The position numbers and the translations under genes are program-made. This document shows, piece by piece, positions 72-23,339 of a DNA stretch of 38,694 nucleotides. A model generated the notes under the pieces. The model made no database searches. It was not told the origin of the DNA and worked only from the letters and a program-made list of their open reading frames with translations. Source of the DNA: Deltaproteobacteria bacterium (GTDB lineage: Bacteria; Bdellovibrionota; FAC87; UBA2466); assembly GCA_900299195.1 (NCBI GenBank), contig OMIX01000086.1:1-38694 (forward strand). Direction: 5' to 3'. How positions within the stretch are numbered: the stretch's first letter is position 1; each line of letters starts with the position of its first letter.

Positions 72-201
72 GTTTTAGGGAGCTTTTAGGGAAAATACTT
101 TTAACAGTGAGATGAGAACCTTTCTCGCCGTAGATAGACAAGGGGTAGAAACCGAAGCTGTTGCAGGCCCCGTGCGATTTTAATGCTGTACGATACTAAA
201 C
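72..201 (+). ncRNA. Candidate structured RNA / dispersed element, copy A
   Basis: This segment is related to 22803-22944. The shared core runs GGGTAGA(A/C)ACCG(A/C)AGCTG, then CAGGCCCCGTGCGATTT, then AA-GC-GTA-GATACTAA. A further shared block, AGGGAAA(A)TAC, lies about 50 nt upstream of the core. Possible helices in this copy are GTTTTAG (72-78) with CTAAAC (196-201), AACAG (103-107) with CTGTT (158-162), and TTTC (121-124) with GAAA (148-151). No coding frame explains the conservation, since the two copies differ by single-base gaps. Strand is assigned by analogy to copy B and is not proven. No known riboswitch or housekeeping RNA signature was recognised. Confidence 0.4.
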
Positions 202-22724: not shown

Positions 22725-22786
22725 AATGGAAAACCAAGTCTACCGGCTTAGGCTTCGCTATGCGCCGTACGACCTGGTTTTCCATT
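22725..22786. repeat. Long imperfect hairpin (about 20 bp stem)
   Basis: AATGGAAAACCA (22725-22736) pairs with TGGTTTTCCATT (22775-22786). After one mismatch the stem continues with GTC/GAC, TAC/GTA and GGC/GCC, each with small bulges. The loop is about 15 bases around GGCTTCGC. No proper T-run follows. It could be a terminator for whatever lies upstream, a small folded RNA, or the core of a miniature repeat. Confidence 0.5.
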
Positions 22787-22802: not shown

Positions 22803-22944
22803 TAGAGTTGGAAGGGAAATACAAAGTGGTGCTATTCCAACTGCACGGGTGGCAGCGGAGTGTGTCGTACCGTCCATTCTGGAAGGGTAGACACCGCAGC
22901 TGACAGGCCCCGTGCGATTTGAAGGCGGTAGGATACTAACTCTG
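22803..22944 (+). ncRNA. Candidate structured RNA / dispersed element, copy B
   Basis: This copy is related to copy A (72-201) and folds better. TAGAGTT (22803-22809) can close with AACTCTG (22938-22944). Inside, GCACGGG (22843-22849) pairs with CCCGTGC (22909-22915). CAGC (22853-22856) pairs with GCTG (22899-22902). GTGTC (22862-22866) pairs with GACAC (22890-22894). These nest into one arm. The third position of GACAC/GTGTC is C-G here and A-T in copy A (GAAA/TTTC), a compensatory change. An alternative hairpin GTTGGA/TCCAAC (22807-22812 with 22836-22841) competes with the closing helix. No matching family was recognised. Confidence 0.45.
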
Positions 22945-23013
22945 TATAACCCTCAACGCCAAGATATCGCTTCGACCCATCAACCACTTGCACAAAAAAT
23001 TAGAGAGGGGCTT

Positions 23014-23086
23014 AGCCGACGACCGGAATCGAACCGGTGACCTGCTCATTACGAATGAGCTGCTCTACCGACTGAGCTACGTCGGC
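23014..23086 (-). tRNA. tRNA-Thr, anticodon CGT
   Basis: A complete cloverleaf lies on the minus strand. The 7-bp acceptor stem is GCCGACG/CGTCGGC. The D arm is GCTC...GAGC. The anticodon stem GCTCA/TGAGC encloses the loop TTCGTAA, so the anticodon is CGT and reads ACG. The T arm ACCGG TTCGATT CCGGT ends the fold. The discriminator base is T and CCA is not encoded. A run of six T follows about 17 bases downstream and may serve termination. Confidence 0.95.
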
Positions 23087-23339
23087 CCATATCTGTTCGA
23101 AAACACTATTCAATTTCGTAGGATTTGTCTACCCAAGCCCATTCGAAACTAGCTCTGTCTTAAAAGCTAACAGGTCAAACAGGGGGAATTCAGCTAGTTA
23201 GACTGTCAAAGAGTTGAGTCACTAAAAGCTTTACACTCCTGATGTTCCTTTTAGCCTGGGAACTCCCTTTAAAATGTGGTCTTCGGGTTGCATCACTGTC
23301 CAGTAGGGGAAAGTGTCTTCACACTATTTTGGGGGAGTC
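23087..23339. other. Intergenic region between tRNA-Thr and the lectin gene
   Basis: No gene was found. It must hold the divergent promoters for tRNA-Thr (minus) and the lectin gene (plus), but no hexamer pair stands out on either strand. GGGGGAG at 23331-23337 directly precedes the lectin ATG. An in-frame GTG at 23313 with AGGGGAAA before it is an alternative but less likely start. Confidence 0.4.

Follow-up and report, generated by a model that had tools for sequence, protein, structure and literature searches.

Template switching creates and mends hairpin stems, and the idea that an existing hairpin may prime the copying of its own stem belongs to the same literature (PMC8794818, PMC6649704). 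In template-switch hairpins and quasipalindrome correction, perfect stems arise and persist by copying of one arm from the other, and an existing hairpin can prime that copying (PMC8794818, PMC7202029). The palindromes of nematomorph mitochondrial genes are long perfect inverted repeats that reach into genes and whose arms evolve together (PMC6649704). REP and REPIN elements are small dispersed intergenic palindromes, often located behind genes. They use RAYT transposases, and what is recognised is a folded single strand containing unpaired bases; REP stems measure 5-13 bp, have a family-specific sequence and carry a GTAG or CGTC tag (PMC3733652, PMC8266576). MITEs are short, dispersed and devoid of genes, and share terminal inverted repeats between copies. 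Integron attC sites, with their RYYYAAC/GTTRRRY ends, conserve the structure of the folded strand more than its sequence.

The element described here, which we call X, was found in a window of 38,694 nucleotides, the whole stretch of DNA that was analysed (contig OMIX01000086.1 of assembly GCA_900299195.1, from a bacterium of the phylum Bdellovibrionota). It consists of a conserved core flanked by arms that differ from copy to copy. A covariance model finds about 15 X copies in genome JAIEOG01 (G011) and about 10 in JACPWY01 (G009), both from the same family as the window's genome (G000), in which it finds one, copy B, itself a training row of the model. With this model, no X elements appeared in the other five genomes of the window's genus or in a sample of 141 other genomes of the phylum. 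A strict pattern run over 84,980 species genomes matched 15 places, only in JAIEOG01 and JACPWY01, and none in viral contigs; plasmid and phage records contained none either. Apart from tRNA, no Rfam family exceeded its gathering cut-off in the window or the loci (the remaining hits, to microRNA-precursor and similar models, were sub-threshold). A known RNA family or riboswitch was rejected, since X matches no Rfam model. Our literature search returned papers on template switching and REPs, and no element with the X layout. Apparently, X is a family of dispersed DNA hairpins undescribed so far.

With template-switch hairpins, X shares perfect stems that seem to arise and persist by arm-from-arm copying, and a hairpin that could prime it. 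However, the cases described (PMC8794818, PMC7202029) have no dispersed sequence-specific core, whereas the X core marks about two dozen separate inverted copies. The nematomorph palindromes, also similar in reaching into genes, differ in lacking a conserved core and in belonging to an organelle (PMC6649704). Like REPs, X is small, dispersed and intergenic, often behind genes, but its stems are longer (20-37 bp) and copy-specific. The terminal GTAG/CGTC tag by which REPs are defined (PMC3733652) is absent, as no base outside the core is conserved in alignment A2. Like MITEs, X is short, dispersed and without a gene, but no terminal inverted repeats are shared between X copies, the arms being unrelated. 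Finally, X resembles attC sites in conserving folded structure more than sequence; its conserved bases lie inside and its variable ones outside, and no R boxes of the RYYYAAC/GTTRRRY type stand at the base of the stem, where X has no conserved bases.

The original prediction had drawn nested helices in copy B, with a compensatory change relative to a second stretch, copy A. The three helices it named (GCACGGG/CCCGTGC, CAGC/GCTG and GTGTC/GACAC) lie where it placed them (Table 1). All are present in the minimum-energy fold of 22833-22925 (-38.5 kcal/mol, z -2.4; 4 of 200 shuffles equally good). Taken alone, this predicted stability is modest. Comparison within the family makes the inferred structure secure, since 23 aligned copies retain the helices with two-sided changes. 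Changes on both sides are seen in 22 of 28 pairs, and the covariation score over these copies is 0.693, against 0.179 when shuffled and at most 0.224 when slid, so that the covariation looked for among homologues was strongly present. The exchange of a C-G for an A-T pair between copies A and B, from which the compensatory change had been deduced, can indeed be read, although by itself it is weak evidence. A GTTGGA/TCCAAC hairpin, thought to compete with the closing helix as in a switch, does exist (7-8 bp), within the outer arm of copy B, and coexists with the core in the centroid fold. Since it belongs to a copy-specific arm and is not a feature of the X family, the proposed switch found no support; mutually exclusive conserved helices, as in a riboswitch or two-state RNA, were not found.

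Table 1. Features of the window, with positions counted from its first nucleotide.
Feature	Position	Strand	Description	Basis
Copy A	110..200 (similar stretch 143-199)	+		84% identity to copy B (query 91-145), E 2.4e-10
Second motif Y hairpin	22725..22786	-	beside copy B, on the opposite strand; not an X core	23-nt inverted repeat, 83% complementary
X element, copy B	22833..22925	+	conserved core 22847-22911 with decayed outer arms	covariance model match over the full length (copy B being one training row of that model)
Closing helix	GCACGGG 22843-22849 / CCCGTGC 22909-22915	+		sequence, fold, pair counts
Helix 2	CAGC 22853-22856 / GCTG 22899-22902	+	between the conserved loops GG/ACAGG and GGA/GCA	
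Inner helix	GTGTC 22862-22866 / GACAC 22890-22894	+		sequence, fold
Motif Y in copy B	GTCGTAC 22864-22870 ... GGTAGAC 22886-22892	+	3x3 GUA/GUA loop	pattern search (0.00 chance matches expected)
tRNA-Thr (CGT)	23013..23087	-	right-hand neighbour of copy B	ARAGORN and Rfam
ORF of 476 aa	23313-24743	+	Thr-rich linkers; C-terminal stretch resembles bulb-type lectin repeats by eye	

The core is about 60-68 nt long, with the consensus GGGT-GR-NNNN-GGA-[variable inner hairpin]-GCA-NNNN-RCAGG-ACCC in alignment A2. Only the GGG/CCC part of the closing helix is invariant in the family, the remainder of this helix being copy-specific arm. In helix 2, pairing extends to 100% of the cells, and three of the four pairs have changed on both sides (CAGC/GCTG, CAGT/ACTG, CACC/GGTG, CGCC/GGTG, CTCC/GGAG, CCCC/GGGG), while the loop GG/ACAGG swaps with GA/GCAGG among copies. 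By covariation, the core is shown to fold, as modelled, on its own strand. That strand is probably the + strand in the orientation of the window, because inner hairpins of equal length contain 11 G.T pairs, about seven of which look independent, and no A.C pair. Mutational strand bias could imitate such an excess, yet the arms in the same DNA show none: their first 30 nt contain 18 G.T and 17 A.C mismatches, which gives no sign of selection on one RNA strand there. The core thus looks to be under selection to fold on the + strand, and the arms look homogenised at the DNA level.

Copy A has only its 3' half in common with copy B. It lacks the GGGTGGCAGCGG partner, the absence of GCACGGG pairing having been correctly predicted, and its best fold (z -0.73; 47 of 200 shuffles equally good), in which the GAAA/TTTC helix is missing, is no better than chance. 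For these reasons, we take copy A to be a 5'-truncated remnant and not a second fold: of the two possibilities raised for it, degeneracy holds and an alternative fold is unsupported. A third partial copy is located at G000:C60:19745. The arms of copy B are reduced to 9 of 12 pairs, and neither the anchored test nor strict HSPs (see below) detect any outer inverted similarity around it. Judged by these arms, which are nearly without remaining match, the window copy is old and worn. Since the window's genome contains this worn copy and two 3' remnants elsewhere, the X family looks old and decaying there.

Better-preserved loci inform us about the arms. The near-perfect arms of about 20-37 bp are specific to each X copy and show no relationship to those of other copies, even within one genome or where the cores are near-identical. 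These perfect arms are the inner part of a longer inverted repeat of 21-112 nt (strict HSPs) that decays outward. Pairing falls from 97% at 10-20 nt to 77% at 20-30 nt and 64% at 30-45 nt, and in the outer zone the inverted copies are now about 70% identical. As the first gapped alignments of the flanks wander by chance (for example at the window copy), strict HSPs and an anchored test with swapped pairs were used instead. Outside the arms, anchored extension averaged 9.5, against 2.4 for the 254 swapped pairs, every one of which was exceeded at 11 of 24 loci; several G011 loci (L090, L092, L094) retain no inverted similarity beyond the perfect arms. With gene ends taken from a simple caller and distances compiled by hand, 11 loci were counted at which inverted similarity enters the gene or tRNA on the right, against none at which it enters the gene on the left (p 0.001). 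Because it enters on the right only, the left arm is most simply an inverted copy of the end of the right-hand gene, the right side being the original. At L091, the left side repeats the prs leader, start codon and first codons in inverted, decayed form, and at L099 the end of recO; tRNA-Gln is another right-hand neighbour copied into a left arm. Flanking paralogous genes were considered as a source of the inverted repeats and rejected, none being found. Two marks of template switching are therefore present, namely an arm that is an inverted copy of DNA from the opposite side and homogenisation of the arms close to the apex with no bias towards an RNA strand.

X elements mostly stand just past the 3' end of a gene. 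The neighbour lies close on the right of the element, usually on the opposite strand with its 3' end facing it, and the folding strand is antisense to this gene at most loci. Copy B, 88 nt behind a tRNA-Thr gene of the opposite strand, has the usual X setting. Six right-hand neighbours are tRNA genes (Thr in the window; His, Gln, Asp, Leu and Ser in G011). Genuine genes are also found in this position, encoding PRPP synthetase (L091), RecO (L099), ferredoxin (L089), glutamine synthetase (L086), a solute-binding protein (L095), DnaK (L098) and a response regulator (L085). GC skew, taken as a sign of replication-linked orientation, was uninformative (negative at 13 of 24 loci), and no longer version of X with an internal gene was found among 23 sites of the 3' half.

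We propose, with a probability of about one half, that the hairpin core of X spreads and primes the fold-back copying of the neighbouring gene end, and that the window copy is a worn member of the family. The conserved core would spread, or have spread, to sites beside genes; we infer this spread because near-identical cores stand in unrelated surroundings. Once folded, the core would let a growing DNA strand snap back, copy itself for about 20-110 nt and then return to the template. Later template switching would keep re-perfecting the 20-37 bp beside the core, leaving the outer part to drift to about 70% identity. It is tempting, if doubtful, to propose further that the core is a mobile hairpin with self-primed integration: once it is attached to a free 3' end close to a gene terminus, its folded end would prime copying of the gene end, insertion and inverted duplication being one act. 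To our knowledge, such a mode of spread is known in no bacterium.

Fold-back copying is supported by two other core families with the same layout as X. In family Z (G009; L195, L200, L202), a short loop, GTCGAAANNCNGNAACGCC, occupies the middle of 108-155-nt inverted repeats whose arms are unrelated. In family W (G011; L204, L205, L206), a core of about 70-80 nt stands directly behind tRNA-Phe, tRNA-Arg and one more tRNA-like 3' end, and the far arm is an inverted copy of the tRNA 3' end and trailer.

A similar arrangement could result if the core inserted into the tips of pre-existing palindromes, for instance the terminator hairpins that follow genes, so that the arms would be target sequence. 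Hairpin-targeting elements are known, and this explanation agrees both with every X copy having its own arms and with the terminator positions that X elements occupy, including sites 14-18 nt behind tRNA genes. We nevertheless consider it unlikely. The G011 tRNA genes without X are mostly followed by hairpins of 6-12 bp, some with T-runs, and few of these reach 15-22 bp; in 400 kb of G009 there are only two core-less short-loop palindromes of at least 19 bp. Moreover, the T-run that directly follows an intrinsic terminator hairpin in gene direction is absent behind the four tRNA-linked elements examined (L115, L122, L132, L136), and, unlike in a terminator, the similarity continues into coding sequence and tRNA, and does so on a single side.

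It is likewise improbable that X as a whole is a functional RNA, either a 3' UTR or an antisense RNA, with a long stem that selection for base pairing maintains. The lack of strand bias in the arms argues against it, and so does the antisense orientation of the folding strand at most loci; besides, selection for pairing leaves unexplained the outer similarity that reaches into the neighbour's coding sequence. What speaks for an RNA, besides the position just behind genes, are the conserved loops, the covarying helix 2 and the G.T excess of the inner helices, and these reside in the core. The core part alone may be a functional RNA, which is partly compatible with fold-back copying primed by that core.

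That a known transposase moves X, as an ordinary REP- or MITE-like repeat, seems very unlikely, palindromic, dispersed and intergenic though X is. Copies have no conserved ends in common and no REP tag (PMC3733652). Homologues of the Y1 transposase exist in G000 and G009, but also in genomes without X, and none matched in G011, the genome with most copies (93% complete). Reverse transcriptases showed no correlation with X-bearing genomes either, and both enzymes were rejected as markers since their distribution does not follow X. Movement in trans by a lost enzyme may be compatible with the failure to find a linked transposase. Lastly, an assembly or amplification artefact or chance complementarity is hardly credible: all the genomes concerned are draft metagenome assemblies and fold-back chimeras arise in amplified DNA, but the outer inverted copies, at about 70% identity, are too diverged for a chimera, the same core occurs in independent assemblies, and swapped-pair and slid-pair controls do not reproduce the signal.

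Other small repeats were observed in these genomes. Next to copy B stands a hairpin absent from the original prediction (z -5.9; 0 of 200 shuffles equally good), which has the motif GTCGTAC/GGTAGAC (motif Y) in common with copy B. Motif Y also occurs inside the X cores L051, L054 and L056. With A-rich/T-rich outer arms, hairpins with its 3x3 loop form a family of their own in the window's genus (window 22725-22786, G000:C43:17020, G000:C50:11963, G001:C1:60758). The repeat CGTCTTCGC..GCTACGCC.GGCAAG, possibly a small mobile hairpin, is present at the same point, the GACAGG loop, inside two X cores, L109 (G011:C427) and L190 (G011:C438), and also behind several tRNA genes. In G009, L066-L083 (e.g. 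L072 11508-11639, L079 10204-10335) are MITE-like, with shared 23-bp ends GAGCCTATCC.AAAACCC.TTC and 86-nt centres, and also include several inverted repeats with centres of 129-132 nt.

Overall, the original prediction was right about a structured copy B with compensatory changes and a degenerate copy A; it missed the dispersed family, whose stems appear to be copied from the ends of neighbouring genes. What is unusual here is a specific, conserved and dispersed core at the turn of inverted copies. The origin and upkeep of long perfect hairpins is an open question, to which template switching is a leading answer, usually inferred from scattered single cases. Marking the turning point of about two dozen inverted copies of named genes and tRNAs, in which a perfect zone lies inside and a decayed one outside, the X core provides a natural experiment on fold-back copying and could reveal how hairpin repeats of bacteria originate and stay perfect. 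X, if its core is mobile, would also be a bacterial element whose ends are made from host gene ends, one that repeat finders seeking shared ends would miss.
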